NCBI GenBank assembly: GCA_029561345.1
Contig: JAKQJC010000019.1
Location: forward strand, 1 to 64,000
DNA from: Chloroflexota bacterium
Lineage (GTDB): Bacteria; Chloroflexota; Anaerolineae; Anaerolineales; Anaerolineaceae
Direction of reading: 5' to 3'
Length of the DNA stretch: 64,000 bases
Part shown: positions 10,972 through 64,000 of the stretch, piece by piece
Layout: the number at the start of each line of letters is the position of its first letter
Numbering within the stretch: the stretch's first letter is position 1
Position numbers and translations under genes: made by a program
Notes under the pieces: model-generated
Told to the model about the DNA's origin: nothing
The model's input: only the letters and a program-made list of their open reading frames with translations
Database searches by the model: none

Positions 10972-11232
10972 CTTGCCCTCCAATGGAAAATGATGGATAG
11001 GCCGCATCATCTTACCCAAACCCTATGCCGGATGCCATATTCACTTTTTTGACGTTTGGGAAGTGTGTAAACTCATTATAGGTTGATGTGTAAGGCAAGT
11101 CAATCACCCCTTTGCCCGCCCACCACACATTAACTGCGGATTAATCCCCCCGGCTGCGCCGCCCTGATATCCATGAGAACGGCGAGTTTACAGTATAATT
11201 AATCCAACTTAATTGACGATTCAGGGAGCACT

Positions 11233-12192
11233 ATGACATCCATCTCAAGCTATACTTCAACCCTTTCACACAACATTAAAAAGGTCATCATCGGCAAGGA
11301 TGATATCATTGAACTACTGCTGGTTTCCCTCCTGTGCGAGGGACATATCCTGCTTGAAGATGTCCCCGGGGTGGGCAAAACCATGCTCGCCCGCGCCCTG
11401 GCAGCCTCCATTGGCGGCGTGTTCCGCCGCGTGCAATGCACCCCTGATCTGCTCCCCAATGATATCACCGGCGTCTCGGTGTTCAATCAGCAGACCAGTT
11501 CCTTCGAATTCCGCCCGGGCCCCCTCTTCGTCAACATCCTGCTGGCCGATGAAATCAACCGTGCCACCCCGCGCACCCAGTCGGCCCTGCTCGAAGCCAT
11601 GCAGGAGCAGCAGGTGACCGTTGATGGCATCACCTACCGCCTGCCGCGTCCATTCATTGTCATGGCAACTCAGAATCCCATTGAATATGAAGGCACCTTC
11701 CCCCTCCCTGAAGCCCAGCTGGACCGCTTTATGATGCGCCTTTCAGTCGGCTATCCTTCCACTGATGAAGAGCGCCTAATTCTCAAGACACTGCAACGCG
11801 AACACCCCATCAACACGCTTGGCAAGGTGGTGGAAGCGGATGATATCGTCCCCTTCCAGAAGCAGGTCTGGGAAGTCAATGTGGATGAAACCGTGCAGGA
11901 ATATATCCTCAAGATGGTGGCCCTCACTCGCGCTCACACCGAGCTGACCCTCGGCGCCAGCCCGCGCGCCAGCCTGGCTCTGTTCAAAGCCGGCCAGGCT
12001 CTGGCTGCCCTGCGCGGGCGCGATCATGTCATTCCCGATGATATCAAGTACCTGGCCGAACCGATTCTGGCGCACCGCCTGATGGTCCGCCCAGAAGCAG
12101 AACTGAAAGGACGCAGCGACAAGGTGATTGTGCGCGAAATCGTCGCCAGCACCCCGCTCGGTTTACGCACCGCCCAGGAGGCGGCCAGATAA
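11233..12192 (+). CDS. MoxR-family AAA+ ATPase
   Basis: 319 residues with Walker A in EDVPGVGKTMLARAL (about 39-53), Walker B in ILLADEINRA, sensor-1 region MATQNPIEYEGTFPLPEAQ, and the C-terminal lid domain typical of MoxR proteins. RBS GGGAG lies close to ATG 11233. MoxR ATPases act as chaperone-like factors in assembly or activation of membrane or metal-binding complexes; the following DUF58 and membrane genes form the standard partner set. A TATAAT at 11194-11199 could be the -10 box, but no matching -35 was seen. Confidence 0.95.
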   Translation: MTSISSYTSTLSHNIKKVIIGKDDIIELLLVSLLCEGHILLEDVPGVGKTMLARALAASIGGVFRRVQCTPDLLPNDITGVSVFNQQTSSFEFRPGPLFVNILLADEINRATPRTQSALLEAMQEQQVTVDGITYRLPRPFIVMATQNPIEYEGTFPLPEAQLDRFMMRLSVGYPSTDEERLILKTLQREHPINTLGKVVEADDIVPFQKQVWEVNVDETVQEYILKMVALTRAHTELTLGASPRASLALFKAGQALAALRGRDHVIPDDIKYLAEPILAHRLMVRPEAELKGRSDKVIVREIVASTPLGLRTAQEAAR

Positions 12193-12198
12193 CCCGGC

Positions 12199-13392
12199 AT
12201 GAATGATTATTTGCCTGTGCTGTTTGCACTCATCATTGCTGCCGCTGCATTGCAGCAGCACTTTATTTTATCCATCCTCTACCTCATCACCGGTCTCTAT
12301 ATAGTCGGCCGCTGGTGGAGCCGCCGCTCCCTGAACAATCTCTCGTTGGAGCGCGTCTATACGCCCAATGCCTTCCTCGACCAGGATGTGCAGGTTGAAC
12401 TGGAGATAAAAAACCGCGGCCTGCTGCCGGTGGTCTGGGTGCGCCTGCATGAAAGCCTGCCCCTTGAACTGGCTTCACCCAATTTCTTCCGCCAGGTGCT
12501 CAGCCTGCTCTGGCGCGGTCAAACCCGCCTCACCTACAACCTCCACACTCACAAGCGCGGCTGCTATGCCCTCGGCCCCCTCTTTCTCACCAACGGCGAC
12601 CTGCTCGGCATCACCCCTGAAAACAACCGCGAAGTGACCAGCGATTACCTGACCGTTTATCCCAAGATCATCCCCATTCCAAGTCTCAATCTTTCTTCCC
12701 GCTCCCCCTTCGGCACCATCCGCCACAGCAACCCCATTTTTGAAGATACCTCCCGCATCATCGGCAAACGCGACTACCGTCCCGGCGATTCCCTGCGCCG
12801 GGTAGATTGGAAAACCACGGCGGTCACCGGGCGTCTGCAGGTCAAGCAGTATGAAGCATCCATCGCCCTCGAAACCCACATTTTTCTGGACCTGGATAAG
12901 CGCACTTACCTGCGGCAGAACTGGTTTGATGCCTCTGAACTGGCCATTGTTTGCGCCGCCTCGCTGGCCAACTGGAGCAATACCCATAAACAGGCAGTCG
13001 GTCTCTGCACCAACGGCCTCGATTTTCACCTCAATCCCAAAGGCCAGATCCCCCGCGCTCTGCCGCCGCATAAGGGCAGCGGACATCTGATGTCGGTGCT
13101 GGAAACCCTGGCGCGCGTGCAGTGCGCTGAAACCCAGCCTTTCAGCCAGATGATCGAGCAAAACATGGCCAACCTCTCCTGGGGCACCACCATGCTGCTC
13201 ATCACCGGCCAGTACGATCAGAATCTGCTGCAAATCATGTTTCAGGCGCGGCGGATGGGCCTGCAGCCGGCTGTGTTCCTCATCGGCGCCAGCGTGGCCC
13301 TTCAGGAAGCCCGGCGAGAAGCCGGCCACTTTGGCTTTCCGGTTTTTATCATTCAATACGCAGATGATCTGCTGGCACTTTCAGCCCACTAG
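12199..13392 (+). CDS. DUF58 domain protein
   Basis: 397 residues. Two hydrophobic helices at the N-terminus (about 5-40) anchor it; the DUF58 core shows KRDYRPGDSLRRVDWKTTA at about 190-208, followed by a vWA-like fold. Starts 6 bp after moxR and ends 3 bp before the next gene, so it belongs to one operon. DUF58 proteins are regular partners of MoxR ATPases; molecular role unknown. Confidence 0.92.
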   Translation: MNDYLPVLFALIIAAAALQQHFILSILYLITGLYIVGRWWSRRSLNNLSLERVYTPNAFLDQDVQVELEIKNRGLLPVVWVRLHESLPLELASPNFFRQVLSLLWRGQTRLTYNLHTHKRGCYALGPLFLTNGDLLGITPENNREVTSDYLTVYPKIIPIPSLNLSSRSPFGTIRHSNPIFEDTSRIIGKRDYRPGDSLRRVDWKTTAVTGRLQVKQYEASIALETHIFLDLDKRTYLRQNWFDASELAIVCAASLANWSNTHKQAVGLCTNGLDFHLNPKGQIPRALPPHKGSGHLMSVLETLARVQCAETQPFSQMIEQNMANLSWGTTMLLITGQYDQNLLQIMFQARRMGLQPAVFLIGASVALQEARREAGHFGFPVFIIQYADDLLALSAH

Positions 13393-13395
13393 CCT

Positions 13396-15102
13396 ATGAG
13401 CGATACTCCTCCCACCCCAACCCATGCCCGCCATCCCGCATTGATCATTGCGTTTAACACCATCACCATCGCCCTGATGATGACCTGCGTGGCTCAAATA
13501 ACCGGATTGGTGGGGCTTCGATTTTCGGTGCCGGTCAACCTTTCCCTGATCGCTGTGGCTGCCTTCCTCGTCTCGCTTGAGTCCACCTTCACCTACCGCC
13601 TGAACACCGGCGTTGCCTTTCCCAGCCTGGAAGGCCTGTTCCAGCACCTGATTGAATGGGTGCTGCTCCTCACGGCCATCCGCATCGTCACGGCCCTGTT
13701 CAATGACCCGGCCCAGATCGGCCAGCGTTTTTCTGATCTCTTGGCCGCGGCAGGCCAGCTTTTCCAGAACCCCTCTACATTTTTCGGCGAGACGGCTTCC
13801 CGGCAAAAGATGCTCGAAATACTGATGGCGCCTGATTTTCTAATTGCAGCAGCCATTTTGCTGCTGGTGTGGACGATCACCCGCCAGCTCTGGCAAAACC
13901 TGGTGCTGCTTGAACTGGATGAAGACATTTTGGAACAGGAAAAGCTGGGCATCCTCATCAACAACCGTTACGAAGCCCGCCGCGAGCTGGTTGGTTTTGT
14001 GTTCGGTATCGGCATCATCATCCTGATTTGCACGGCCATAACGAACACCGAGATCCCCTATCTGCCCAGCCCTCTGGCCGATGACTCCCTGGCTGGCGTG
14101 CTGATCACTCTGATGATCTACTTCCTGTTTGGCATGGCCCTGCTGGCTCAAAGCCAGTTCTCTCTGCTGCAGTCGCACTGGTACCTGCAGGAAGTGCCCA
14201 TTGAACCCGGCACGGCCCGCAATTGGGGCGTTTACAGCCTGGTGCTTCTGGCCGGCATCACCCTCGTCGCCATGCTTTTACCCACCCAATATGCCAGCGG
14301 TTCGCTCGTGCTCCTGCGAGATGCGATTAACGTCTTGATGCAGGTGGTGATGGTCATTTTATTTGGCCTGTATCTGGGTCTGGTGTCCATTATTTCCTTC
14401 TTCATGCAGTGGCTCAACCCCGCTTCTGAAACCGTGCTGCCGGCCGCCGTGCCGACCCCTGAGCCCCTGGTTCCCGCCGACTCCGCCTACCCGGCCCCGG
14501 CCTTCACCCTGCCCGAAGCCGTTCAATCCTTCTTTTATTGGGCCATCCTGGCAGTGATTGTGATCTACTCGCTGGTCTTTGTTTTGCGCCGCCTGCCTTC
14601 ACCCGCCCTGTGGTTGAAAAACCTGCCCTTCGGCAGCACCCTCAGCCACATCTGGGCCTGGCTGGCTGCCCGTTTCAAACAGGCTGGCAACGGCCTGGGC
14701 GCCCTGGCGCAGGCCGGTATCCAGCGCCTGCGCACCCTGCGCACGCCTCAGGTTAACCTGGTCAATGCCCTGATGAACATTGCCGGCAGCCTGCCCGCTC
14801 GCGAACAGATCATCCTTACCTATGTCGCCATGATCCAGTGGAACGAAGGCCAGGGTATTTTCCGCCGCCCGCAGGAAACCCCCATGGAATACCAGCGCCG
14901 TGTGGCTGAACAGGTGCCGGAAATGTCCGCAGACCTGGCCCTGATCACCGGCTTCTTCATTGAAGCCCGCTATACCCGCCATCCCCTGGAAAAGGAACAG
15001 GCCGCCGAAACCCGTGCCGCCTGGGAACGCCTGCGCCAGGCTGTGTTGGCGCACCTGCAGGCAGAAGCCCAAAAAGCTGCCGCGCCCTCTATCCAGACAT
15101 AA
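13396..15102 (+). CDS. polytopic membrane protein with C-terminal DUF4129
   Basis: 568 residues, about nine predicted membrane helices up to residue ~395, then a cytosolic tail. The last ~100 residues match the DUF4129 pattern (ETPMEYQRRVAEQVPE, then LALITGFFIEARYTRHPL), a domain usually found in or beside transglutaminase-like membrane proteins. The transglutaminase catalytic domain itself is absent. Third gene of the MoxR-DUF58 set and probably the membrane partner. Confidence 0.85.
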   Translation: MSDTPPTPTHARHPALIIAFNTITIALMMTCVAQITGLVGLRFSVPVNLSLIAVAAFLVSLESTFTYRLNTGVAFPSLEGLFQHLIEWVLLLTAIRIVTALFNDPAQIGQRFSDLLAAAGQLFQNPSTFFGETASRQKMLEILMAPDFLIAAAILLLVWTITRQLWQNLVLLELDEDILEQEKLGILINNRYEARRELVGFVFGIGIIILICTAITNTEIPYLPSPLADDSLAGVLITLMIYFLFGMALLAQSQFSLLQSHWYLQEVPIEPGTARNWGVYSLVLLAGITLVAMLLPTQYASGSLVLLRDAINVLMQVVMVILFGLYLGLVSIISFFMQWLNPASETVLPAAVPTPEPLVPADSAYPAPAFTLPEAVQSFFYWAILAVIVIYSLVFVLRRLPSPALWLKNLPFGSTLSHIWAWLAARFKQAGNGLGALAQAGIQRLRTLRTPQVNLVNALMNIAGSLPAREQIILTYVAMIQWNEGQGIFRRPQETPMEYQRRVAEQVPEMSADLALITGFFIEARYTRHPLEKEQAAETRAAWERLRQAVLAHLQAEAQKAAAPSIQT

Positions 15103-52311: not shown

Positions 52312-52603
52312 CGGAGTTCCTCCTGATAAATAAATGGGGGCTGCTTTCTATTCTACATGAAAAAAGAAAAAACTGCCCATGAAGCAGGCAGCCATAAATT
52401 GTTTTTTGGCCTCAGAACAACCTGTCGTCAGCTACAGGGCTTTCTCAGAGGCGGGTTATGAGTTTTCGGGTTTTAACCCGTGAAATAGGATGGAGAAATT
52501 GCCGTAAGTTACGCCTTTCCCTTATCAAAACAAAATCACCAGAACTCTTTCCATCATTTTATCAAATACCTGCTTCAGATATGGATTCCCTGGAATAACG
52601 CAA
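52312..52603. other. non-coding region left of the element
   Basis: No gene found. It contains the 14-bp palindrome CGGGTTTTAACCCG (52467-52480) and a small CTGCC/GGCAG stem near 52374-52390. AT-rich. May hold the promoter of the leftward methyltransferase gene; no hexamers were convincing. Confidence 0.5.
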
Positions 52604-52631
52604 AAGGCTGTTCCGAAATCGGAACAGCCTT
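52604..52631 (-). terminator. 28-bp perfect palindrome, terminator downstream of tRNA-Gly-like end
   Basis: Arms AAGGCTGTTCCGA (52604-52616) and TCGGAACAGCCTT (52619-52631) with a 2-nt loop. On the minus strand it ends in TTTT, so it reads as an intrinsic terminator for leftward transcription, as expected 3' of a tRNA gene. It also has the 11-6-11 layout of a Xer/dif-type recombination core, which I consider the less likely meaning. Confidence 0.65.
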
Positions 52632-52634
52632 ATC

Positions 52635-52649
52635 AGCGGGAGCGACGGG
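52635..52649 (-). other. tRNA-Gly 3'-end-like sequence, candidate attachment site
   Basis: The minus strand reads CCCGTCGCTCCCGCT, which from memory equals the T-stem 3' strand plus acceptor 3' strand and discriminator of common bacterial tRNA-Gly. The preceding bases do not form a T-loop or the rest of a cloverleaf, so only the 3' end is present. A 3'-terminal tRNA fragment beside a tyrosine-recombinase element is the usual look of an att site. Confidence 0.5.
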
Positions 52650-52701
52650 TGTCATGCCTGCGAGGACAATTTCGGCTGGATTCCTCCTACGATCCCCCTA
52701 C

Positions 52702-54438
52702 ATGAACGTTTTGCGAGACTACAAAGACTTTTGGAATCTCAAATTCATCAATCGGCGGGTGGTTCGGACGGGGATGGAGATGCTAGCAGTGGATGACAAT
52801 CCCCCTTTTATAGGCTTTTCAAAGCCGAAAACTTCTTACTATCGCTTGCCAAACCAGTGGCATAGTAGTTTACAAATACTTTTAACGCGGTATACTTCCA
52901 GAGCAATCGCGCCGATTAAAGTCTTGGAATATATAATTAAGCACACTTGGGGGGTCCAAAACTTTTCAGAACCCATCGCCCTTACCATCAGCGAGATTCG
53001 AAACGGGAAAAAAACAAGGCGTGGTTACCATATTGACAGGGGAACGCAGCTATCAGAGAACTCAGTCAGAAAAGCCCTTACTACGCTCGTAGAGCTTGGT
53101 TATATCGAAGTCCTACCAAGTCCAGATGAAAAGCCACTGTATAGAATTGTGACATGCGAAGAGGAACAACAACCAACCCATTCCAATGGACAGCTTTTCT
53201 GTGGTTGGCAGATTCCAGAAAAAAATTACTTTCAGGTTCCAGCGACCTGGACAGATTTGTGTTCAACGATCTCATCATCCGCAACAATTCTGATTATCGA
53301 GTATTTTTTCCGTCACGCATGGGGTTATCAGAATGATCATGGGATCTGGCTTTCCGCCCGTGAGCTGGCGACTGGTCGGCGGTATGCGACTGGAAAGGTA
53401 TATGATGAAGGCACCGGGCTTGATCTATCAACAGTGTATCGGGCACTTTCTGATGCTGTCAACCGCGGATTTTTGGTTTGGGCAAAATTCGGGACAGAAA
53501 AATATTATAACTTGAGATATGAAAAAATGCCGCTCTCACTTACTGGCGAGTTCAATGGGAAATTTCTGGAAGACTTTCCCATTGATGGAGAGAGAACCTG
53601 GGGACACGCTCCTCATGAAGAACAGAGGACTGCCGCGATTCGCAATCTTGAGGCGGTTGTTGGCACTGTTGAAGAATCCATTTGCAAAGTTGAGGATCCC
53701 ATTTGCAATAGTGATGAGCAGACTTGCAATGTTGAGGGTTCCATTTGCGAAGTAGAAGGGGAAAATAGCTCAATTAATACACTTTATCCAACACCCTCTT
53801 TAAACACTTTTAACAACAGCACTCCTAAACGCCACGAAAAGCTCCAAGATTTTGTTGCTGCTGTTTATCGCTCCTCTGACGAAATTTTAACAGCTATTGG
53901 AGTGGTGGGGGCTCAAAAATATTCGGGAATCCCATTCCTTGATGCGGTTGCCTGGATTTTTTATAGTTACACCCAAAACCTGAAAAGCCCCACTGGGTAC
54001 CTGGTCTCCCGGCTTCGGAGTCATGAACCACCCCCTCAAAATGCCACAGATCTGATTGCTCTTCCAATAAATCAGTTCTTCTCTTTGGAACGGAAAAAGA
54101 TCGAAGGGTTCCCACCTAAACTCAAATCAATTTTTCACAATTGTTTTGAAGATTTTTCAAATAATAATTTTGAACAAAAAATCGAGTACTCCGAAGAAGC
54201 AACCGCCCTTTGGAGGACAATTGTTCAGGCGCTTGAAGAACAGGCTGAATTAATTCCCCGCGCAGATCTATTGACCTGGATAAAACCAGCTAGGGCAAGG
54301 TCCTGGGATGGCATCACGTTGTCAGTCTGTGTGATAAATCCGTTAGCAAAGGTGAAAATTGACACATACTTTAGGCCACTACAGGAACAACTAGCACGTT
54401 TAGTTCCGGAAGGTCGGATAGTAGTTGAGGTTATATGA
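52702..54438 (+). CDS. replication-initiator-like protein (two winged helices, DnaA-N-like C-terminus)
   Basis: 578 residues from ATG 52702; ATGs at 52654 and 52774 are also in frame and none has a clear RBS. Two homologous winged-helix modules occur in tandem (about 35-155 and 175-280): each reads YYRLPNQW or YFQVPATW, then H.WG.Q, a basic G(K/R)(K/R) segment and D(R/E)GT-L-S-V-(R/K)-AL. A linker of six heptads follows (about 313-354). The last ~80 residues match the DnaA N-terminal domain pattern (LWRTIVQALEEQ, TWIKPARARSWDG, LSVCVINPLAKVKI). This fits a plasmid Rep that binds iterons and contacts host replication proteins. Function inferred from fold and from the partition and recombinase neighbours. 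Confidence 0.75.
   Translation: MNVLRDYKDFWNLKFINRRVVRTGMEMLAVDDNPPFIGFSKPKTSYYRLPNQWHSSLQILLTRYTSRAIAPIKVLEYIIKHTWGVQNFSEPIALTISEIRNGKKTRRGYHIDRGTQLSENSVRKALTTLVELGYIEVLPSPDEKPLYRIVTCEEEQQPTHSNGQLFCGWQIPEKNYFQVPATWTDLCSTISSSATILIIEYFFRHAWGYQNDHGIWLSARELATGRRYATGKVYDEGTGLDLSTVYRALSDAVNRGFLVWAKFGTEKYYNLRYEKMPLSLTGEFNGKFLEDFPIDGERTWGHAPHEEQRTAAIRNLEAVVGTVEESICKVEDPICNSDEQTCNVEGSICEVEGENSSINTLYPTPSLNTFNNSTPKRHEKLQDFVAAVYRSSDEILTAIGVVGAQKYSGIPFLDAVAWIFYSYTQNLKSPTGYLVSRLRSHEPPPQNATDLIALPINQFFSLERKKIEGFPPKLKSIFHNCFEDFSNNNFEQKIEYSEEATALWRTIVQALEEQAELIPRADLLTWIKPARARSWDGITLSVCVINPLAKVKIDTYFRPLQEQLARLVPEGRIVVEVI
53639..53763 (+). repeat. six tandem 21-bp repeats inside the rep-like gene
   Basis: TTTGCAAAGTTGAGG-like units begin at 53639, 53660, 53681, 53702, 53723 and 53744, exactly 21 bp apart; the best-conserved core is CCATTTGCAA. 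They encode the heptads IRNLEAV, VGTVEES, ICKVEDP, ICNSDEQ, TCNVEGS, ICEVEGE. The 21-bp period (two helical turns) is that of replication iterons, so this may be an origin as well as a protein linker. Confidence 0.8.
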
Positions 54439-54514
54439 TTTCTGGATGTCGTGCCTATGCGAAGCAAAGTCGATATTAAAGATTATGGATCAAAATTTAA
54501 TAGGAGAAAAAAAC

Positions 54515-55495
54515 ATGATTTACCTCGGTGAAGATTTAGGAGCTGGCGCAAACAAGATCTATGGAGCCTTTGGTGGAATGCAATTGCAAGCTGTTGTGGC
54601 TGCCGAAACCAATCAGACGGTGGCTAAATTGATGGGGTTTCGCAACGAAAAGCCTCCCCTTTCCATTCATACAGCAGGTATGAATTTCTATGTCGGGCCT
54701 AATGCACATGCTTACGGCCGCGGGATTGAAAATTTTGATTTTGAACGGATGACTGGGGTACCCGAAACGCGGGCAATTGTTTATGGCATCCTCACCCGGT
54801 ATATGCAGCAGTTTGGTGTCTTCACCGACCCCTTGCACATGGTTGTCGGGTTACCCCTTGAACCTCTTTCGGGAGACCAGGCTCAGCAAAATGCAGATGC
54901 AACACGGCGTTGGCTATTGGGTGAACATATCTGGTTGGCAGACGATATCCAATATAAAGTGCATATTGCGGAAGTTAAAGTGACCTCTCAACCATCCGCC
55001 GCCTTATTTGATTACTTGCTGGATGAAAACGGCCTGTTCATTCCTGAGCGTCGCTCCCATTTCAATCATGAAATTGGTATTATTTCGGTTGGTTTTAACA
55101 CTATCGAACTGCTGACGGTCAGGGAAAAAACAATCGTCCAAAGCCTTACGGCAGGACGGACGCTTGGGGTCAGGCGTTTGCTCGAACTGGTAAACTATGA
55201 AAATTTATATTCCATGGGTGAGCTGGACACAATTCTTCGCAACGGCAAGCTGGATATCAAAGCTGCGCTGCCTGTATGGACTCGGGAGATCACTGGCCAG
55301 ATTGAGAAAACCTGGGGCAAAAAGTGGCGCCGTTTTGACCAGATTATTGGCGTCGGAGGTGGGGCAATCCTCCTCCAGGATTCGTTGATCCAGTGTTTTG
55401 ATGGGAAATTGTTCATCCCGGAAGATCCTGTTTTGGCCATCAGCCGCGGGCTTTACAAACAGGCACTCCAACATGCCAACCGGAGGAAGGTATGA
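54515..55495 (+). CDS. ParM/actin-like plasmid segregation ATPase
   Basis: 326 residues from ATG 54515 (TAGGAG 8 bp upstream). Actin-fold landmarks: phosphate-1 LGEDLGAGANKIYG at the N-terminus, VVGLPLEP and NTIEL segments in the middle, and a phosphate-2/adenosine loop IGVGGGAILL near residue 282. It resembles ParM/Alp/StbA-type proteins, which form ATP-driven filaments pushing plasmid copies apart. It overlaps by 4 bp a small basic protein gene, the arrangement of parM-parR operons. Confidence 0.85.
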   Translation: MIYLGEDLGAGANKIYGAFGGMQLQAVVAAETNQTVAKLMGFRNEKPPLSIHTAGMNFYVGPNAHAYGRGIENFDFERMTGVPETRAIVYGILTRYMQQFGVFTDPLHMVVGLPLEPLSGDQAQQNADATRRWLLGEHIWLADDIQYKVHIAEVKVTSQPSAALFDYLLDENGLFIPERRSHFNHEIGIISVGFNTIELLTVREKTIVQSLTAGRTLGVRRLLELVNYENLYSMGELDTILRNGKLDIKAALPVWTREITGQIEKTWGKKWRRFDQIIGVGGGAILLQDSLIQCFDGKLFIPEDPVLAISRGLYKQALQHANRRKV

Positions 55496-55737
55496 ATTCG
55501 CATCGGAAGCGTGGGCGTTCCATCAAAGCTTCACCATCGATCGAGGTTCATATTCACCTGCGTTTGCGCGTTGGAGAGGACGATGATCTGATTTCATTTT
55601 TTTCAGAGCAACGTGAACGCAATAAAGCGCAGGCCATCAGGTGTGCACTCAGGCAGGGCGGTGTAAAAGCACTTTCAACTCTCGATACAGCCGAGGATAT
55701 TATTTTTTCGGATGCACTTGAGGGATTACTGCTTTGA
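55492..55737 (+). CDS. ParR-like small DNA-binding partner
   Basis: 81 residues, basic N-terminus (NSHRKRGRSIKAS) followed by a beta strand (IEVHIHLRL) and two helices (ERNKAQAIRCALRQGG), compatible with a ribbon-helix-helix protein. ATGA overlap with the actin-like gene and a very strong RBS (GGAGGAAGG). In type II partition systems such a protein links the centromere DNA to the filament. Role inferred from size, fold guess and context. Confidence 0.65.
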   Translation: MNSHRKRGRSIKASPSIEVHIHLRLRVGEDDDLISFFSEQRERNKAQAIRCALRQGGVKALSTLDTAEDIIFSDALEGLLL

Positions 55738-55743
55738 ATAACT

Positions 55744-55778
55744 GGGAACCAAAAAATGGCAATGCTTTTTTGGTTCCC
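55744..55778 (+). terminator. 13-bp inverted repeat between partition and recombinase genes
   Basis: GGGAACCAAAAAA (55744-55756) and TTTTTTGGTTCCC (55766-55778), perfect, loop TGGCAATGC. It begins 6 bp after the ParR-like stop codon and ends just before the recombinase RBS, so it may end or damp the partition transcript. Confidence 0.6.
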
Positions 55779-55799
55779 AAAATAAAAAAGGAGAAACTT

Positions 55800-56735
55800 A
55801 TGAAGGACCAAATGAGCCAACTGAATGAATTCAAACAGTTTTTGATGGACAGACAAAAATCTCCAACCACCATCATCGGATATGTTGGAGACATTGTCTC
55901 TTTTTCAAAATGGTTTGCACAGACCTATACATCTGATTTTTCCGTTGAAGATTTGGATACAGAGCTGGCTCGAATCTATAAAAAAGCGCTTTCTGATGGT
56001 GGAATCCATCCGCGGACCATCAACCGGCGGCTCGCCTCGTTACGGGCATTTGCTGCCTGGGCACAGCAGACAGATTATCTTCCACAGGGACCTAATCCAA
56101 TTTCAAATGTTCGACCTGCTCGCCAGGTGATGCTGGCACCAAAATGGATTGATCATAAAGAGCGTTCGCGCCTGTTAAGGACCGTTGATGCTGAAGTAAA
56201 AAGAGCTATGATTCTGTTTCCGCGATTGCGCTTCCAAATCATTCGTGACGCCGCAATTTTAAAAATGTTCCTTCATACGGGACTGCGAGTTGACGAACTG
56301 GCTAATTTACAGCTCACCGACATCAATATGGATGACCGGCGGGGGGTGTTGGTCGTAAGGAATGGAAAGGGAGCCAAACGGCGGGAAATCCCACTTAATC
56401 CAGATGCCCGCTCAGCGATCCAAACCTATCTCAAAATCCGCCCGGATGATGCCGGCCTGACCAACTTATTTGTGGATATGAAAGCTACAAAGATTGAGAA
56501 AAGGACAATTCAACGGGCTGTTGCCCGGTTTGCCAAATTGGCCGGGTTGCAGCATGTCTCCTGCCATACCCTGCGTCATACTTTTGCCAAGGACCTCATC
56601 GATCGTGGGGTGACTCTGGAGAAAGTCGCTGCTTTATTGGGGCATTCCAACCTCAATACCACCCGGATCTATACCACCCCTAGTTCACGCGATCTTGAGG
56701 CCGCGGTCAATTTATTAATTGACGATAAACCATAA
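55800..56735 (+). CDS. tyrosine recombinase (XerC/D-type integrase)
   Basis: 311 residues from ATG 55800, with AAAAGGAG 6-7 bp upstream; an earlier in-frame ATG at 55734 lies across the hairpin and is unlikely. N-terminal SAM-like core-binding domain (TTIIGYVGDIVSFSKWF), then the catalytic domain with Arg in TGLRVDEL, Lys in RNGKGAKRR, His-x-x-Arg in CHTLRHTF, His in LGHSNLNTT and nucleophile Tyr in RIYTT. All catalytic residues are intact. It is the likely integrase or dimer resolvase of the element. Confidence 0.93.
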   Translation: MKDQMSQLNEFKQFLMDRQKSPTTIIGYVGDIVSFSKWFAQTYTSDFSVEDLDTELARIYKKALSDGGIHPRTINRRLASLRAFAAWAQQTDYLPQGPNPISNVRPARQVMLAPKWIDHKERSRLLRTVDAEVKRAMILFPRLRFQIIRDAAILKMFLHTGLRVDELANLQLTDINMDDRRGVLVVRNGKGAKRREIPLNPDARSAIQTYLKIRPDDAGLTNLFVDMKATKIEKRTIQRAVARFAKLAGLQHVSCHTLRHTFAKDLIDRGVTLEKVAALLGHSNLNTTRIYTTPSSRDLEAAVNLLIDDKP

Positions 56736-56772
56736 ATCACAAACCAGGAAACCATTTACGGAGGAGATATAA

Positions 56773-57168
56773 ATGCCGCTGCTTTTCAGGGAATTAACTT
56801 CAAAAATTATCTCAGCTTATCTTGATACTTATGCCGAACTGAAGAACCGGCCTGGATATAACGAGCATAATTGCACCCGGTCCCTGTGCATCGAGTTGGG
56901 AAATCGCGGACTTCAATATCAGGAGCAGGTACCTTTCCGCAGAATGTACAAAGGCTGTCAGGTGGGGGGTGATTTTCTTGACCTCGTTATTGAAAACAAA
57001 GTTTTGGCTCAGGTCAAAAAAGTGCAGGTATTGAGAAAAGAGCACTACGACCAGGCCCGGACATATCTATTTGATTCGGGCCTGGCAGTCGGTTTCTTAT
57101 TCAACTTTGGAAGCATCGAACCTGAGTACTCCCGTCTTTACGAAAAAAGAAATGATGGTTCACAATGA
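56773..57168 (+). CDS. GxxExxY-like protein with degenerate PD-(D/E)XK site
   Basis: 131 residues aligned in pattern with the GxxExxY family: ELTSKIISAYLDTYAELK, then GYNEHNC where the family has GxxExxY, ELGNRGLQYQEQVPF, GDFLDLVIENKV and GLAVGFLFNFG. The catalytic E-x-K after the Asp strand reads QVK here, and the final Tyr of the name motif is Cys, so nuclease activity is doubtful. RBS GGAGGAG before ATG 56773; its stop overlaps the start of the next gene. Confidence 0.8.
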   Translation: MPLLFRELTSKIISAYLDTYAELKNRPGYNEHNCTRSLCIELGNRGLQYQEQVPFRRMYKGCQVGGDFLDLVIENKVLAQVKKVQVLRKEHYDQARTYLFDSGLAVGFLFNFGSIEPEYSRLYEKRNDGSQ

Positions 57169-57683
57169 TTTATAGAACCCAATCGCAGAAAATGCCGCTC
57201 AACACATATATTGACGAAATCATCTCAGGGGTGAGAAGCCGGCAGCTCCATCTGGCTGATCGGCTGGCCTCCTCCCCTCGGGATTCTTTTATATCTTTTG
57301 GAATGCACATAGCTGACCTATTTACTGAAATGGATAGTCATTATTCCAAACAGATTAACGATCTGCAATCCGCTTTGAGGATTTCAGAATACAAAGCTGC
57401 ACATTACAAAGAGCTTATGGAAAAAAAAGAGGGCAAGATTGTTGAGGTCATTCAAAATGATACCTCCATTAGTCAAATGGAAGAACTGAATGAACAAATT
57501 CTCCAGTTAAATATTAAGTTGGAAACATCCCATTTGGAAATTATGGAGCAGCAGAACCAGATGGACACATTGGTTTTTGAGAATGAATGTTTACAAAATC
57601 AGGTGGCTGAGCTCAATCGCATGGTTGCCAGCCAGCACCAACAATTAATGGGGCTGTTGGGCTCCGATTTTGACCGCCCATAA
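57165..57683 (+). CDS. coiled-coil protein of unknown function
   Basis: 172 residues. The N-terminal ~55 residues are helical (NTYIDEIISGVRSRQ, SFGMHIADLFTEM); residues ~60-165 are a long coiled coil rich in Glu, Gln and Asn ending MGLLGSDF. No family recognised. Translationally coupled (ATGA) to the preceding GxxExxY-like gene, so the two products may act together. Confidence 0.75.
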   Translation: MIYRTQSQKMPLNTYIDEIISGVRSRQLHLADRLASSPRDSFISFGMHIADLFTEMDSHYSKQINDLQSALRISEYKAAHYKELMEKKEGKIVEVIQNDTSISQMEELNEQILQLNIKLETSHLEIMEQQNQMDTLVFENECLQNQVAELNRMVASQHQQLMGLLGSDFDRP

Positions 57684-57773
57684 ATCGACCCCATTATTTA
57701 TTCCACATCAAATCCCTATATTTAATTAAGAGGGTATTGGATATACGGTCATAATTATTTACGGAGATGTGAT

Positions 57774-59252
57774 ATGCCGGAACTGACCTCTGATTCACTG
57801 AAAAATCTTGCGGAACTTCTTGATGCCCACACAACAGCCGGACCCTGGTTTTCTTTCCTGGAATTGCTGGAGCCAACGGGAGTCGCGGATATGCTGCAGA
57901 TGCAGGAAGCCCTAAACATATCCCGCGATAAAGTGCGCCGGTTGATGGACCAGATGAAAACCTGCACGGGTGACTATCCAGAACTGTTCACAATTCTGGA
58001 TTTTTCGACCAAACGGGCCGGCGTGCGTGGAAGAACGCCCAACATCATCCGCCTGGGCCCATCCGGAGCAGCTTTGCTTCGCCTGCGTGGTTATAAACAG
58101 ACCCACCATTGCCTGCTTGATCACGAGCTGGAAATTCAGCATGCCGTGTTGATGGTTGATATTCGCCTTGCGGCTTTGAAAGCTGGTTTTAAGGTGATCA
58201 CGGACAGGGAGATCTCATATGGGGACAAGGCGTGCATCCGCCCTGATAACCAGGTTCTTCAACCCAATGGCACAATCTGCCTTTTTGAAACTGAGCAAAT
58301 TGCCTTGCCCCAATATACCCGCCGGATCACCGAAAGCCTGAAAAATAAAATTGCTTTTTTCTCAAACTCGCAACGACCTGGTATTTCGCCAATCATACGA
58401 ATGGTCATTAATGTGACCAGAAGCAAAGACTGGGAGCGGACCATAAACATTTGGAAACAGGTTTGCCAGATTTTGTCGGCAGCGCAGCCCCTACCTTTCA
58501 AGCTGTTTGCCATTCCCCAGGAAGAGTTCACAGCCAAGCCTGATTGGACCGAGGAAACGGATCCCAGCCGCTGGACAGATCTATCCGCACCGCGCACCAT
58601 CAAGAAAGAAAATGCCTCTTCCTCAGGAATGAATGAGAAAACGCTCCAACCGCCAAAACTTCTTTTCAGGCAGACTCCTCAGGAAGACCATATTGTGCTG
58701 CAGGCGCTCTGGCAGCAGTTTATTGAAAATAATTCTGACCGGCCCGATTCACACCATACACCATCACCCGCCTTCTTTGAAACCATGTGCCTGATCCATT
58801 CGGCATCATTTTCTAACGACGGCAGTGGGTTTTCATCGGCAGCTCTTCCCCGGGCATCCATTTTTTTGTTGAATCAATATCTGAGAATGCATCCTGTTCT
58901 TAAGATATCCCTTCAAAAATCCATATCCCGCGGAGTGGCCACCATGCGCTGGAATACGGTCAATATTCTCCACCGCATGCAGGTGATCATTGAGCGGTTT
59001 CTATATTATCACGGCTGGTACAACGGACCAGCCATCCAGGCCCTGGCAGGTACCTATAACTATAATTCTGAAGAAGGCACTGGTTTTTGCATCACGGTGA
59101 AAATTCACAATCCCTGGATCATGGCATACCCCGATGGCTTCCGCCCAACAGACGAGGAAGTCCTGCAGGCCGAAAAAGCGTTGGCCTGGGTGCTGTGGGC
59201 TTTGTTTTCTTTCCCGGAAGACCTGGATTTGCCTTACAATGCCTTTTGGTAA
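57774..59252 (+). CDS. replication-relaxation-family protein
   Basis: 492 residues. N-terminal winged-helix segment (MQEALNISRDKVRRLMDQM, then RGRTPNIIRLGPSGAALL; about 42-100), then the relaxation-type core with HHCLLDHELEIQHAVLMVDI (quoted in part), DREISYGDKACIRPD and FETEQIALPQYTRRI, and a further ~250 residues I do not recognise. Proteins of this group occur on plasmids and integrative elements and are tied to replication or mobilisation, though the mechanism is unclear. GGAG before ATG 57774. The gene ends exactly where the broken ATPase begins, marking the right end of the element. Confidence 0.75.
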   Translation: MPELTSDSLKNLAELLDAHTTAGPWFSFLELLEPTGVADMLQMQEALNISRDKVRRLMDQMKTCTGDYPELFTILDFSTKRAGVRGRTPNIIRLGPSGAALLRLRGYKQTHHCLLDHELEIQHAVLMVDIRLAALKAGFKVITDREISYGDKACIRPDNQVLQPNGTICLFETEQIALPQYTRRITESLKNKIAFFSNSQRPGISPIIRMVINVTRSKDWERTINIWKQVCQILSAAQPLPFKLFAIPQEEFTAKPDWTEETDPSRWTDLSAPRTIKKENASSSGMNEKTLQPPKLLFRQTPQEDHIVLQALWQQFIENNSDRPDSHHTPSPAFFETMCLIHSASFSNDGSGFSSAALPRASIFLLNQYLRMHPVLKISLQKSISRGVATMRWNTVNILHRMQVIIERFLYYHGWYNGPAIQALAGTYNYNSEEGTGFCITVKIHNPWIMAYPDGFRPTDEEVLQAEKALAWVLWALFSFPEDLDLPYNAFW

Positions 59253-59589: not shown

Positions 59590-60006
59590 GGTCTCTCTAA
59601 CCATTGTAATTTGTATTATTATAACCAGGATTATGTTTTCGTTATAAGCGCAAGGTGATGAGGATTATGATATTGAGTTTCAAAAATAGCCAGATTGATG
59701 GGTCCCAGACATATTAAGACGAAAACAATGAATTACATAAACGAACCCAGCATACATTCTTCCTCAGTTCTTGTATAAAATTATACCAACCTGGCTGACC
59801 AGCCGTGAATTTGTTGCAATGGGGATGAAAAAATTGTTTTTTGTCTATGCGCAGTTTTGATCTAAAAACAAATATCGCGAAAATGACCTCCAATTTACTT
59901 TTCCTCCGAAAAAATTAGCGCCCATGACAAAATTTTCCAAGAAAAGGACTGCATATCATCTCCTTCTCTCGGGATTCTCATTTTCTTTGATTATTTTTTT
60001 TAGAGT
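59590..60006. other. non-coding region
   Basis: AT-rich; no gene recognised. It contains the upstream region of the broken ATPase gene (ATTATT/TAATAA runs near 59605-59630). A 65-codon plus-strand frame at 59924-60121 runs into the lipoprotein gene and is not supported. Confidence 0.5.
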
Positions 60007-61098
60007 TTATTCATCGGCAGATGAAACACAACGGAAACCGTATATATTCGCATATTCTGACGGATCCACATGTAAAGAATCACCCCATAAATTCCATCCG
60101 CCACCTCGCAAGATTTTATAGATTCCTGTAGCTGCTCCGGCCGGGTTATTGACCGTTACCCCGTTGGGATAGAAATAACGGATTTCAGAGGTATCAAGCC
60201 AGTCATTCACCCATTCCCACACATTGCCAATCATGTCCAGGGCTCCATATGGACTGGCGCCGTCTGGATAACTTCCTGCTTCTGTTGCTTCACCTACGCA
60301 GTAAATATGACTCCCTTTATCAATATTAGCCAGGCTGCAATTGGCGGCATCATTGCCCCAGGGGTATTTCCGGCCATCCGTTCCCCTGGCAGCTTTTTCC
60401 CATTCTGCTTCGGTGGGCAGGTGCTTGCCCGCCCAGGCGCAGTAAGCCGCAGCGTCATTCCAGCTCACCTGGGTCACCGGCCAATGATCTTTACCCTGCA
60501 AATCGCTGGTTGGCCCCTGCGGGTGCTCCCAATTAGCGCCATAGACATCTTTGTAGATGCCATCCATAATCCGGCCCTTGCCATCTTTTTCAGCATCCGT
60601 CCAGTAGTGGGTCTCGCTGACAAATTGAGTGAACATGGTATTGGTGATTTCGGTTTTATCAATCCAATAGGCATCCAGGTACACAGAATGGGGAGGGAGT
60701 GAATAGAATTCAGCATGTTTCATTATAAATTCCCCAGCCGGGACGAAAACCTGCTCCATGCCGTCCTTCTCCCAAATACGTGACACGATGTTTTCTGGAG
60801 GCGGACTGAGAGCCGGGGTAGTCGTGGGAGAAGGCGAAGGTGTGATCGTCGGGGCCACCGTTGGCTCCGAGGTAAGTGTTGCTGTTGGGTCTGCCGTCAG
60901 GATGATGGCAGGCGTCGCCGTCACCGCGGCCGTTAGGACTGGCGTTTCTTTCGCGCTGAGTCCGCAGGCAGCAAGCAGGGTCGCCAGCAGGAGGATAATC
61001 AGCGCCAGCACAACTGTCCGCCCGGGTAATATGCCATTGTTATGGAATTGCATCATTTTTCGCCGTTGTCTTTCCGCTATCCTGTCCTGAAGCATCAT
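60007..61098 (-). CDS. FGE/SUMF1-domain lipoprotein
   Basis: 363 residues: signal peptide with lipobox LLAAC (Cys about residue 45 from ATG 61098; a start at 61056 would give a more usual length of signal), a Thr/Pro/Ser linker (about 50-105), then an FGE-like domain: VFVPAGEFIM, YWIDKTEITNTMF, VTQVSWNDAAAYC, LPTEAEWEKAARG, KYPWGN, GNVWEWVNDW, LRGGGWN and GFRCVS at the end. Surface-anchored. The domain can be enzymatic or a C-type-lectin-like binder; which is not decided by sequence. Confidence 0.88.
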   Translation of the reverse strand: MMLQDRIAERQRRKMMQFHNNGILPGRTVVLALIILLLATLLAACGLSAKETPVLTAAVTATPAIILTADPTATLTSEPTVAPTITPSPSPTTTPALSPPPENIVSRIWEKDGMEQVFVPAGEFIMKHAEFYSLPPHSVYLDAYWIDKTEITNTMFTQFVSETHYWTDAEKDGKGRIMDGIYKDVYGANWEHPQGPTSDLQGKDHWPVTQVSWNDAAAYCAWAGKHLPTEAEWEKAARGTDGRKYPWGNDAANCSLANIDKGSHIYCVGEATEAGSYPDGASPYGALDMIGNVWEWVNDWLDTSEIRYFYPNGVTVNNPAGAATGIYKILRGGGWNLWGDSLHVDPSEYANIYGFRCVSSADE

Positions 61099-61134
61099 TC
61101 TGTTAGTGCATCAAAAATGCTTCCGTTCCCTGCC

Positions 61135-62256
61135 TTAATGGATGATTTTTCCATTCACCACCTTAATCCAGGCCAATAATGTAATGTAATCCCTGATAGG
61201 CAGGGTGCGAATTCCTCCTGTTGTGGTATCTATCAGGGTAATTATTCCATGATCATTATAAACAAGCTGTGTTTTATCCTTGGAAAGTAACAAATCAAAA
61301 ACGGGATCACTGCTATTTTCAATTTTCTGCGTGATAGTTTTGAATGCCTTATCCAAAAAATGTTCTTCTTTCATGGTGCCATCTTCAGATATGGCATACA
61401 AATCATATAAATGATCCTGATCCTGATCCGCCCCCCAAACGACCAGATAAGGTGTATCAGGCAGCCAAAAATAACTCATAAGGGTGGTTAAGGGGCCAAC
61501 AGATACCTTCTGGCAGCCTTCGGAAGAATGGATGCATTCAGATGGGGCAATGTGAAGACCAGCATATTTCTCAATCTGGCTTCCAGGTAGAAAATCGGTC
61601 ATCCAAAAGTAGCTCAGCCATTTGCCATCCGGTGAAAATGAAGGGTATATACAATCACCCCCTTGCAATTCACAATTGGTCAATACCATTTTCTGCTTTC
61701 CATCTTTCGAAAAGCTGAATATTTCTCTGGAGCCCCGAAATTGACCATAATTACAAGCTATAACGAAGGTTTGATCATCCAGAAATATATCGGGGTAATC
61801 AGAACAATCTTCAACTAAGTCAAATTCCACAGTCTCTATATTCATATTTTCCAAATTTTGGATTTTCAAAGGATTGTCAGAAACAAATACCCACTTATTA
61901 TTATCCAAAGAAATTTTCTCGAATTTGTCTTTAATGAAACTTAAATCCATTCGATAATTCCCATCAATGGAAATTAAACTGAGTATTCCTGTATTTTCAT
62001 GAACGTATAAAATGTATTCTCCATCTGGGACGTTACTCAATCCAGCTGGAACTGAGGTTGGTGTTCTTGTTATCTCCAGCGATGCGGGCGTTATAGTTAC
62101 ATACACAGCAGTATGTAATGGTGCTTCGAAAGATGGTGTTAAAGATGGTGTTAATGAGCTAATGGGCGTCATCAAACGGGAATTATTCATTTCGCATGAT
62201 GAAACCATTGCAATAAATAAAATCAAGATAGTTAAGGAAAGGATAATTTTCTTCAT
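61135..62256 (-). CDS. lipoprotein with WD40/TolB-like repeats
   Basis: 373 residues, lipobox AMVSSC (Cys ~21), Ser/Thr/Pro linker, then a repeat-containing beta-rich domain with PD40-like units (YPSFSPDGKWLSYFW, YDLYAISEDG). Codon use is strongly AT-rich compared with the metabolic genes of the window. Starts 15 bp after the stop of the Rhs-like gene, so cotranscribed; that is the position of an immunity gene, but an external lipoprotein would be an unusual immunity protein. Family assignment tentative. Confidence 0.7.
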   Translation of the reverse strand: MKKIILSLTILILFIAMVSSCEMNNSRLMTPISSLTPSLTPSFEAPLHTAVYVTITPASLEITRTPTSVPAGLSNVPDGEYILYVHENTGILSLISIDGNYRMDLSFIKDKFEKISLDNNKWVFVSDNPLKIQNLENMNIETVEFDLVEDCSDYPDIFLDDQTFVIACNYGQFRGSREIFSFSKDGKQKMVLTNCELQGGDCIYPSFSPDGKWLSYFWMTDFLPGSQIEKYAGLHIAPSECIHSSEGCQKVSVGPLTTLMSYFWLPDTPYLVVWGADQDQDHLYDLYAISEDGTMKEEHFLDKAFKTITQKIENSSDPVFDLLLSKDKTQLVYNDHGIITLIDTTTGGIRTLPIRDYITLLAWIKVVNGKIIH

Positions 62257-62271
62257 AATGAAACCTAAACA

Positions 62272-64000
62272 CTATGGAAACAAATTTGAATTTGGAAAAT
62301 CGTTTGAGGAAGTAAAAGAAAGCACAAGCATGGATGCATAGTAAGTATAGATTGGCGTGATGTTTTCTTTTTTTTGTTTTAATGTGATATCATCATCCAT
62401 AGGCATATTTCTTACCGCATAAACAAAATCAGGCCACCAATAATATTCGGTTTGACTATCAAAAGGATTATATATCCTTATCCAATTCCATGGGGACACC
62501 CCTTCATTATAACCACTATCCCATTGATAGGTCATTCCTGTTATTATGACCCAATGAGGAATTTTTGCTGTTCCATCCTTTTTTATTTCTGAACCATCGA
62601 TTTTTCCGGAATTATTGATGGGCACAAGAATCATTATTAACTGTTGCTTGTCCAAATATTTTTTAAACTTTGCCGCAGAAACAACAATTTGCTTGGAGGT
62701 AACATAACCACCATTGTCCAATTTGTATGATATTTTTTTCCCATATTGGTAAAGCAAATTTTTCGGGATACCAGTATCAATAAACTCAGCCCAACCATGT
62801 CTACTTGTTCCTGCAACCCCATCGTTGGGGTGGATTTCTATTACATAATCCGTAGTAATATTGGGGTAAATTAGAGCAAGGATAGCCGACATTGCCACCT
62901 GCCCACAATGTCTTGCATCTTCGGGATTGCCATTTATTCTTCTAAATGTATAGTCTCTAATGTAATATTGAGCCTCTTTTGTGTTATCTAAACTCTTGCC
63001 ATTATCATCATATATAGGTGCTCCATACCGGGTTATTAAATCCGCATATTTATTAGTCCTCCAAATAATATTACGGGGTGGAATTTTGTGATTATATTTT
63101 TCTGTGTTTGGTGGTAAATAGCTACTACTGTGAGGCCAAACACACCATTCGTCATTTTCTGCACAAAAACTTCCGACTGCCCTTTCTCCATCTCTGTCTA
63201 CATATGTGGTGGGATTTGCATACCCATACAGCCACAGATTATACGACATTGGCTGGGAAGACTCCCCTTCCCATGCATCCTGCGTCAAAAATCGTCCACT
63301 CTGAGGCGTATAATACCTGGCCCGCAGGTTGATCAATCCTGACTCATCTGCCCATTCGCCAGCATAACCATAAGCGGATACTTTATCTCCGGCCAATTCA
63401 GTTCCATTGCCAAATGGATCATAGCTGCGGCTTGTCAGAATATAGCCGTCCTTATCTGTGACCTGGCGAACGCTGTTGAGGTGGTCGCTCAAGAAGTACG
63501 TCGCCCCATCAGGGCCAAGTTGGGCAATTCGGCCAATACCATATAGATATGCCTGATCACCGGCTGCCAAAACCTGGGATAGACCAGATGAGGAATCCAG
63601 AACATATATCTCCGTAGAACCATCCACTGTTTGCTGCAAGCGGTTGCCAAGCCCATCATAAGCAAAGGTGTAGACGTGCGTACCCTGGGTCAGCCTGATT
63701 AAACGGTCAGCCTGGCTGTATTCATATACATTTTTCTCATCCCGCAGCAAATTGCCGTTGGCGTCCCACGAATACGCCATGCCATTAACACTGCTCAGGC
63801 GATTGGCAGCATCATAGGCATAATCTGTAGTCTCGCTTATACCTTTCACAGTTGATGTGTAGCTGAGTCTGTTGCCGACCGCGTCATAAGTGTATTGGTA
63901 CGAAATGCCATTGCTGTAGGTGGCAGCGACCAGGCGGTTCAGCGCATCATAACCATAGGAAATGGTCACGCTGCTTTCCGTTGTCCCCCCCGGCAGGGTC
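62272..64000 (-). CDS. Rhs-repeat protein, 3' part, with peptidase-like C-terminal tip
   Basis: The frame is open to the right edge, so the start lies outside the window; 575 codons are visible. The first ~190 visible residues are YD/Rhs repeats (YGYDALNRLVAATY, YDGLGNRLQQ), then the Rhs core end (YDPFGNGTELAG, YGYAGEW, INLRARYYTPQSGRFLTQD) and YANPTTYVDRDGE. After this boundary the ~310-residue variable tip has ARHCGQVAMSAIL, a later PHWVIITGM and RIYNPFD, in the order Cys-His-Asn/Asp of papain/C39-like peptidases. Typical polymorphic toxin or surface-exchange design. The tip is far more AT-rich than the repeat part. Confidence 0.85.
   Translation of the reverse strand, partial: TLPGGTTESSVTISYGYDALNRLVAATYSNGISYQYTYDAVGNRLSYTSTVKGISETTDYAYDAANRLSSVNGMAYSWDANGNLLRDEKNVYEYSQADRLIRLTQGTHVYTFAYDGLGNRLQQTVDGSTEIYVLDSSSGLSQVLAAGDQAYLYGIGRIAQLGPDGATYFLSDHLNSVRQVTDKDGYILTSRSYDPFGNGTELAGDKVSAYGYAGEWADESGLINLRARYYTPQSGRFLTQDAWEGESSQPMSYNLWLYGYANPTTYVDRDGERAVGSFCAENDEWCVWPHSSSYLPPNTEKYNHKIPPRNIIWRTNKYADLITRYGAPIYDDNGKSLDNTKEAQYYIRDYTFRRINGNPEDARHCGQVAMSAILALIYPNITTDYVIEIHPNDGVAGTSRHGWAEFIDTGIPKNLLYQYGKKISYKLDNGGYVTSKQIVVSAAKFKKYLDKQQLIMILVPINNSGKIDGSEIKKDGTAKIPHWVIITGMTYQWDSGYNEGVSPWNWIRIYNPFDSQTEYYWWPDFVYAVRNMPMDDDITLKQKKENITPIYTYYASMLVLSFTSSNDFPNSNLFP

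Follow-up and report, generated by a model that had tools for sequence, protein, structure and literature searches.

The seven-gene block analysed here is rather likely to be a compact IME-like element, or one of the smaller representatives of an ICE-like Anaerolineae family, residing in the chromosome. It is part of the window (the whole stretch of DNA analysed, 64,000 bases), which takes up bases 1-64000 of a contig 64,883 bases long, in a genome of 4.24 Mb and 70 contigs. This reading is backed by the gene content, the kinship of the genes, their recurring order in relatives, the integration of sister elements at tRNA-Met and a conserved site behind parR.

Gene content and chromosomal setting

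The ORF map revealed that the contig carries ordinary housekeeping genes, so the block is chromosomal as assembled. An ORF check confirmed all seven plus-strand ORFs at 52,654-59,252 (Table 1). A previous reading, made from the sequence only, had described them as a coherent set, and this was upheld: a mobile-element gene set is supported and its modules turn up patchily and without synteny across Anaerolineae. The GC content over the block was 0.43-0.50, compared with about 0.55-0.60 outside, and the GC skew flips sign across most of 53-58 kb. No conjugation apparatus, secretion or coupling genes were found in the ORF map between 52.6 and 59.3 kb, conjugation genes being absent from the flanks as well. 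No tRNA was detected within the 64-kb window. Further along, a stretch at 61000-63999 that covers a lipoprotein gene and the region encoding the C-terminal part of an RHS-repeat protein has a GC content of only 0.36-0.39.

Table 1. Features of the block and its edges, in window coordinates
Feature	Position	Strand	Observation
Weak att candidate AAATTGTTTTTTG	52396..52408, second copy 59831-59843	+	13 bp, A/T-rich
Perfect palindrome, 13-bp arms AAGGCTGTTCCGA aa TCGGAACAGCCTT	52604..52631	.	23 nt before rep
Rep-like initiator	52654..54438	+	Two winged-helix repeats and a C-terminal DnaA-domain-I-like segment
ParM-like actin	about 54515..55495	+	phrog_691 'partition' 2e-26, ALP_N 9e-10
ParR-like ribbon-helix-helix-type adaptor, acidic C-terminus	55492..55737	+	Homologues directly behind parM
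Inverted repeat TGGGAACCAAAAAA-n9-TTTTTTGGTTCCCA, candidate ParR site (parC/operator)	55743..55779	.	Directly 3' of parR
XerC-like tyrosine recombinase (Int)	55800..56735	+	PF00589 1.8e-35, XerC 4.6e-58
GxxExxY protein (PD-(D/E)XK_3), degenerate	56773..57168	+	TIGR04256 5.7e-22
Coiled-coil protein	57165..57683	+	Directly 5' of the relaxase-like gene, likewise in close relatives
Relaxase-like protein: winged helix, PD-(D/E)XK-like core, C-terminal helical part	57774..59252	+	PF13814 by kinship
ATPase_2/DUF234-type ATPase, N-terminal 117 codons	59253..59604	-	Cut off precisely where the last element gene has its stop codon

The Rep-like initiator was found to contain a winged-helix unit in two copies (residues about 52-161 and 190-304), whose positions match in relatives. 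Rep relatives adjoin DnaB helicase genes in three loci (L020, L022, L023), and one is located in an FtsK-ParM-Int locus (L141). The tandem winged helices and the DnaB neighbours favour the Rep-like assignment proposed earlier. A DnaA_N match was obtained with the relative in L024 (4.1e-8), the value for the window Rep being 0.06, which is not significant. The natural reading is that this protein would be an initiator that loads DnaB. The plasmid collection gave no Rep match, and the family was not found in viral contigs. No iterons were detected near rep, the only repeat being a 21-bp coding repeat inside the gene, of which four imperfect copies lie in the linker, at 53668-53758.

A diverged second Rep copy is present on contig C29 of the same genome (L019, 7402-10703), where it adjoins an ExeA-like AAA ATPase and a small ribbon-helix-helix-like protein. 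The three genes recur at L025, there joined by ParA, and probably represent another element type. Beside the Rep-DnaB pair of L022, at 10069-14890, ORFs built from peptides repeated at regular intervals (REALIPVRGRK, QRGFNPRKGSET) resemble a CRISPR array that has been translated.

The long ORF that contains parM opens at 54425, and homology is observed only from 54512-54515. The family matches in Table 1 bear out the ParM-like actin claimed before. The closest relatives (L103, L129) are 67% identical, the plasmid collection yielded matches at 23-28% identity only, and no second ParM copy was found in the genome itself. ParR gave no significant family match of its own and is 32-50% identical to the gene directly 3' of parM in relatives. 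These ribbon-helix-helix-like homologues behind parM in close relatives support its assignment as the probable partner of ParM. Regarding the components of a type II partition system, an actin-like ParM is present and a putative DNA-binding ParR lies behind parM.

One of the two closest ParM relatives, L103, is located on a viral contig of 37 kb that also has tail and portal-like genes, and it falls in the same clade of the ParM tree (support 97/100). ParM was also observed in other viral contigs of probable Chloroflexota phages (L103/L111-L112, L104, L105), in the order FtsK-ParM-ParR in L104 and L105, hinting at phage-plasmids. All this would suit a block that is a piece of a phage-plasmid or prophage, an origin that is already disfavoured and that we consider very improbable: the ORF map showed no capsid, portal, terminase or other structural phage genes in the block or adjoining it, the last-gene and Rep families were not found in viral contigs, and the integrases of viral contigs are distant.

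For the recombinase, an ORF starting at 55734 was rejected as an artefact, since the ribosome site AAGGAG precedes the ATG at 55800 and homology begins at 55812. The catalytic residues R159, H252-x-x-R255, H278 and Y287 (numbering from 55812) are all kept, in line with the intact integrase claimed earlier. The degeneracy ascribed to the GxxExxY protein was also found: it displays AQVKK where active relatives have E-x-K, the catalytic Glu being replaced by Gln.

The relaxase candidate and the repeat behind parR

The last protein had been labelled a replication-relaxation protein. No direct family match was obtained for it, PF13814 included. A full-length relative with 38% identity (L118) passes PF13814 (Replic_Relax) with 39 bits at a cut-off of 25.3, and other relatives come close to the cut-off (L065, L066 (25.0), L071). 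The window protein aligns with twelve relatives and is full length to the conserved C-terminus. In its predicted structure, a winged helix at the N-terminus (VIA Z up to 9.0) is followed by an alpha/beta core. When the core was folded alone, a pLDDT of 89 was reached and the structural matches were nearly all PD-(D/E)XK enzymes. The best VIA matches were BstEII (Z 7.4) and Cdn1 (Z 7.2), Z values below 8 that are not decisive alone, though the list of matches is homogeneous. Foldseek returned Cdn1 (E 1.1e-3) and SfsA (1.6e-3), both with prob 1.00, and further matches were Bax1, EcoO109I, VRR_NUC and the nickase Nt.BspD6I. The motif R156-x-D158 ... E172-x-E174-Q175 is invariant and lies on the expected strands, with D158, E172 and E174 invariant in alignments of 8 and 12 rows. 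The third catalytic position is Glu, not Lys.

PF13814 is listed as the MobC relaxase superfamily (PMC5357655), and MOBC enzymes have been described as relatives of restriction endonucleases (PMC11389934). Based on the kinship with PF13814, the homogeneous PD-(D/E)XK matches and the invariant residues, the last protein is read as a candidate MOBC-like relaxase, with membership by kinship. The earlier label thus stands as far as PF13814 is reached through relatives, but a relaxase candidate is the better description. With such a relaxase the element would be mobilizable and IME-like, which shifts the former 'plasmid-like integrative' reading away from an only plasmid-like one while leaving its mobile-element gene set in place. 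Concerning the hallmarks of an IME, the block contains an intact integrase and, by kinship, a candidate relaxase, and carries no conjugation apparatus of its own. Neither the plasmid and phage collections nor the viral contigs contained matches to the last gene, and the genome holds no second copy.

In 28 of 42 related parMR pairs, an inverted repeat in the 110 bases behind parR beat all 40 shuffles, and 26 of these 28 repeats begin between -10 and +13 from the parR stop codon. The arms are 27-29 bp apart in 12 loci, and outside the repeat the arm 9-mers are all but absent from the locus. Loci with the repeat are the window, L067, L114 and L129-L154. The arms vary together with a strand of ParR: HIHLRLR occurs mostly with GGAACC, RIVLSGW with GGCAGTC or GGCAGCC, and LIRAxLxL with TTGYGYCAA. 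After ParM distance was corrected for, this correlation persisted (partial r 0.40 with the complete ribbon-helix-helix and 0.41 with the strand, p at most 0.001); because the partial Mantel test overstates significance on trees, the arms were hand-chosen and site and gene are co-inherited, it is taken as support, not as proof. The best reading is that the repeat is a putative ParR site, which would serve as centromere and/or operator.

Two other roles were evaluated for the repeat. A crossover site for Int is disfavoured, given that the repeat lies mid-element in every relative, is present in L129, where no Int was seen, and has arms 27-29 bp apart. A transcription terminator was rejected, as the T-run is absent after the repeat. 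In the ParMR loci of viral contigs (L104, L105, L157), two TTTGTNACAAA-like copies were observed instead of an inverted repeat.

Relatives, edges and integration

The last gene was found in 21 of the 350 genomes of the order and ParM in 40 of them. About 40 Chloroflexota loci contain modules of this set, as a rule in the order FtsK-ParM-ParR-[GxxExxY]-relaxase-like-Int-RepA-primase, a ParA/ParB pair replacing ParMR in some related loci. The window copy contains no FtsK, RepA or primase, and a Rep of another family occupies the usual place of FtsK. The ParR-Int order of the window is also present in L136, L138 and L140. Among GTDB species genomes, 28 ParM loci were found, all labelled Chloroflexota/Anaerolineae except L151, a MAG named Acidithiobacillus with a ParM that a viral contig carries in identical form. 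Flanking genes differ between loci, save further element genes and ATPases, and recurring modules with unshared flanks indicate that the genes travel as modules. Conserved chromosomal neighbourhood in relatives, which the sequence-only reading had named as the finding that would speak against it, was not what was observed, the spread being patchy and the flanks unshared. The search for the same seven-gene block at other Anaerolineae loci, which that reading had proposed as a check, gave no second copy: the exact block was found once only. Overall, the distribution looks like that of a patchily spread family of mobile elements in Anaerolineae.

The edges of the element had been placed at 52632 and 59250. 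Both placements are tentative: at the right edge stands a truncated ATPase gene, and the left edge is marked only by the palindrome of Table 1. This palindrome is unique in the genome, forms a strong hairpin (z -7.9) and is a candidate for the left edge or for a rep-proximal signal. The ATPase homology ends after 117 of about 495 codons, at the 59252/59253 junction. The rest of the gene is absent from the window and gave no match in a genome search run with no positive control. ATPases adjoin related elements too (DUF234-type in L115 and L124, DUF4143-type in L119 and L132, one of these two types at L129), and those of L119 and L132 are 89% identical in different genomes. As ATPases stand at the ends of related elements, the truncated gene may be the insertion target or element cargo cut by a deletion. 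Direct att repeats above chance were not detected at the two edges, nor were any clearly above chance found in ten related loci. The AAATTGTTTTTTG pair reached a shuffle p of about 0.01 and was found after the fact.

The main rival to an IME-like element starts from the second fate of the ATPase. It holds that the block is a decayed, immobile deletion derivative of a larger FtsK-ParMR-relaxase-Int-RepA-primase element, with the 59252/59253 junction resulting from a deletion through its own cargo ATPase. The missing FtsK, RepA and primase genes fit this explanation, as do the degenerate GxxExxY, the lack of att repeats at the edges and of tRNAs in the window, the ATPase whose remainder was found neither there nor in the genome, and the ATPases adjoining L115, L119, L124 and L132. 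Still, we regard decay as unlikely: the seven frames are open, the last protein extends full length to its conserved C-terminus, the Int catalytic residues are intact, and the different Rep that stands in for the lost replication genes looks like a working alternative. Misassembly of a true plasmid into a chromosomal contig would agree with the plasmid-like gene set, two unexplained edges and an assembly in 70 contigs. It appears highly improbable, considering that the junction is clean and falls inside a real ATPase gene at a stop codon, and that related blocks are located inside long contigs (133.6 kb, 2.3 Mb and 4.1 Mb).

No circular or plasmid record of the element was found in the plasmid and phage collections, and the circular relatives that had been suggested did not appear: terminal overlaps were detected in none of 12 related contigs. 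Integration can be followed in L174, L175 and L177, ParMR elements of the same family that are about 91% identical and lie on contigs of up to 4.1 Mb. In L175 (the 4.1-Mb contig), the homologous block starts inside a complete tRNA-Met beside the integrase. L174 and L177 contain only 43 nt of that tRNA-Met, flanked by non-tRNA DNA common to both; these ends are attP-like, as in an unintegrated or tandem arrangement. The integrase of these tRNA-Met elements is 26-31% identical to the window Int, and at this distance they show that ParMR modules ride integrating elements, not the integration route of the window element. The ParM gene of L175 contains an in-frame TGA.

Proposed cycle and comparison with known systems

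Several observations count against the preferred IME-like reading: the lack of an att repeat clearly above chance, of a tRNA in the window, of a circular or plasmid record and of end overlaps in related contigs, the coupling-protein, RepA and primase genes missing from this copy, the lost catalytic Glu of GxxExxY, the absence of a direct PF13814 match for the last protein, and the distance of the tRNA-Met recombinase. Under this reading, the activities of the window copy and the whole of its cycle are inferred as follows. The XerC-like recombinase would excise, integrate or resolve the element. Rep would open the origin via its two winged helices and recruit the host DnaB, so that the circle replicates. 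ParR would bind the inverted repeat behind parR, and ParM filaments would push the copies apart, keeping the free circle. Finally, the last protein, with its coiled-coil partner, might nick the element as a MOBC-like relaxase, and the coupling protein of a helper would move it. An FtsK-type coupling candidate is present in relatives and not in the window copy.

A broader proposal is put forward tentatively, as an attractive possibility somewhat short of probable: the Chloroflexota would host a widespread new family of integrative elements in which an FtsK-type coupling/translocase protein, a Xer-like recombinase and a PD-(D/E)XK (MOBC-like) relaxase are combined with actin partition, and in which the centromere would be a single inverted pair of ParR sites directly behind parR whose specificity co-evolves with the ParR strand. 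Of this family, the window copy would represent the smallest version, one in which the initiator has been exchanged.

Sediments, sludge and the deep subsurface commonly harbour Anaerolineae. In agreement with the earlier claim that the layout is undescribed in Chloroflexota, no description of it or of Anaerolineae mobile elements was found in the literature searched, most subscription papers and all preprints being outside its reach. A family equipped for integration as well as partition would carry the SXT/R391-type overlap of ICEs and plasmids into a phylum for which genetic tools are scarce. Replicating vectors could be developed from the Rep and ParMR modules, and the parR-linked inverted repeat lends itself to direct testing as a minimal actin-type centromere for which nature provides a series of specificities.

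The element kind would be a variant of ICE/IME biology, whose gene combination and Anaerolineae spread appear to be undescribed. The SXT/R391 ICEs carry an srpM-srpR-int operon with srpC upstream of srpM, and partition stabilises their excised circle (PMC4489591). As these ICEs hold parMRC-type genes for a transient circle while integrated, the earlier step from partition genes to an episome is weaker than claimed (PMC4489591). They are the closest precedent, having an actin-type partition pair followed by an integrase gene on an integrating element. However, the candidate site lies behind parR here, and SXT/R391 elements are large and encode a complete conjugation apparatus, which is absent from the block and its flanks. 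Streptococcal PF13814/MobC IMEs are likewise compact and combine an integrase with a PF13814-family relaxase, a candidate in our case (PMC5357655). The two described elements have serine integrases, VirD4 coupling proteins and no maintenance genes found (PMC5357655). In contrast, a tyrosine recombinase and ParMR are present here, and an FtsK-like protein occurs in relatives.

The actinomycete ICEs (AICEs) possess an FtsK-type translocase, a tyrosine integrase and replication genes. The relatives of the window element share all three, whereas the window copy is devoid of the FtsK-type gene; neither ParMR nor a PF13814 relaxase is known in AICEs. With type II ParMRC systems (R1/pSK41), the block has in common the parM-parR order, a small ParR and a conserved cis site, here a candidate. 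It differs from them in that a single inverted pair behind parR takes the place of an upstream repeat array.
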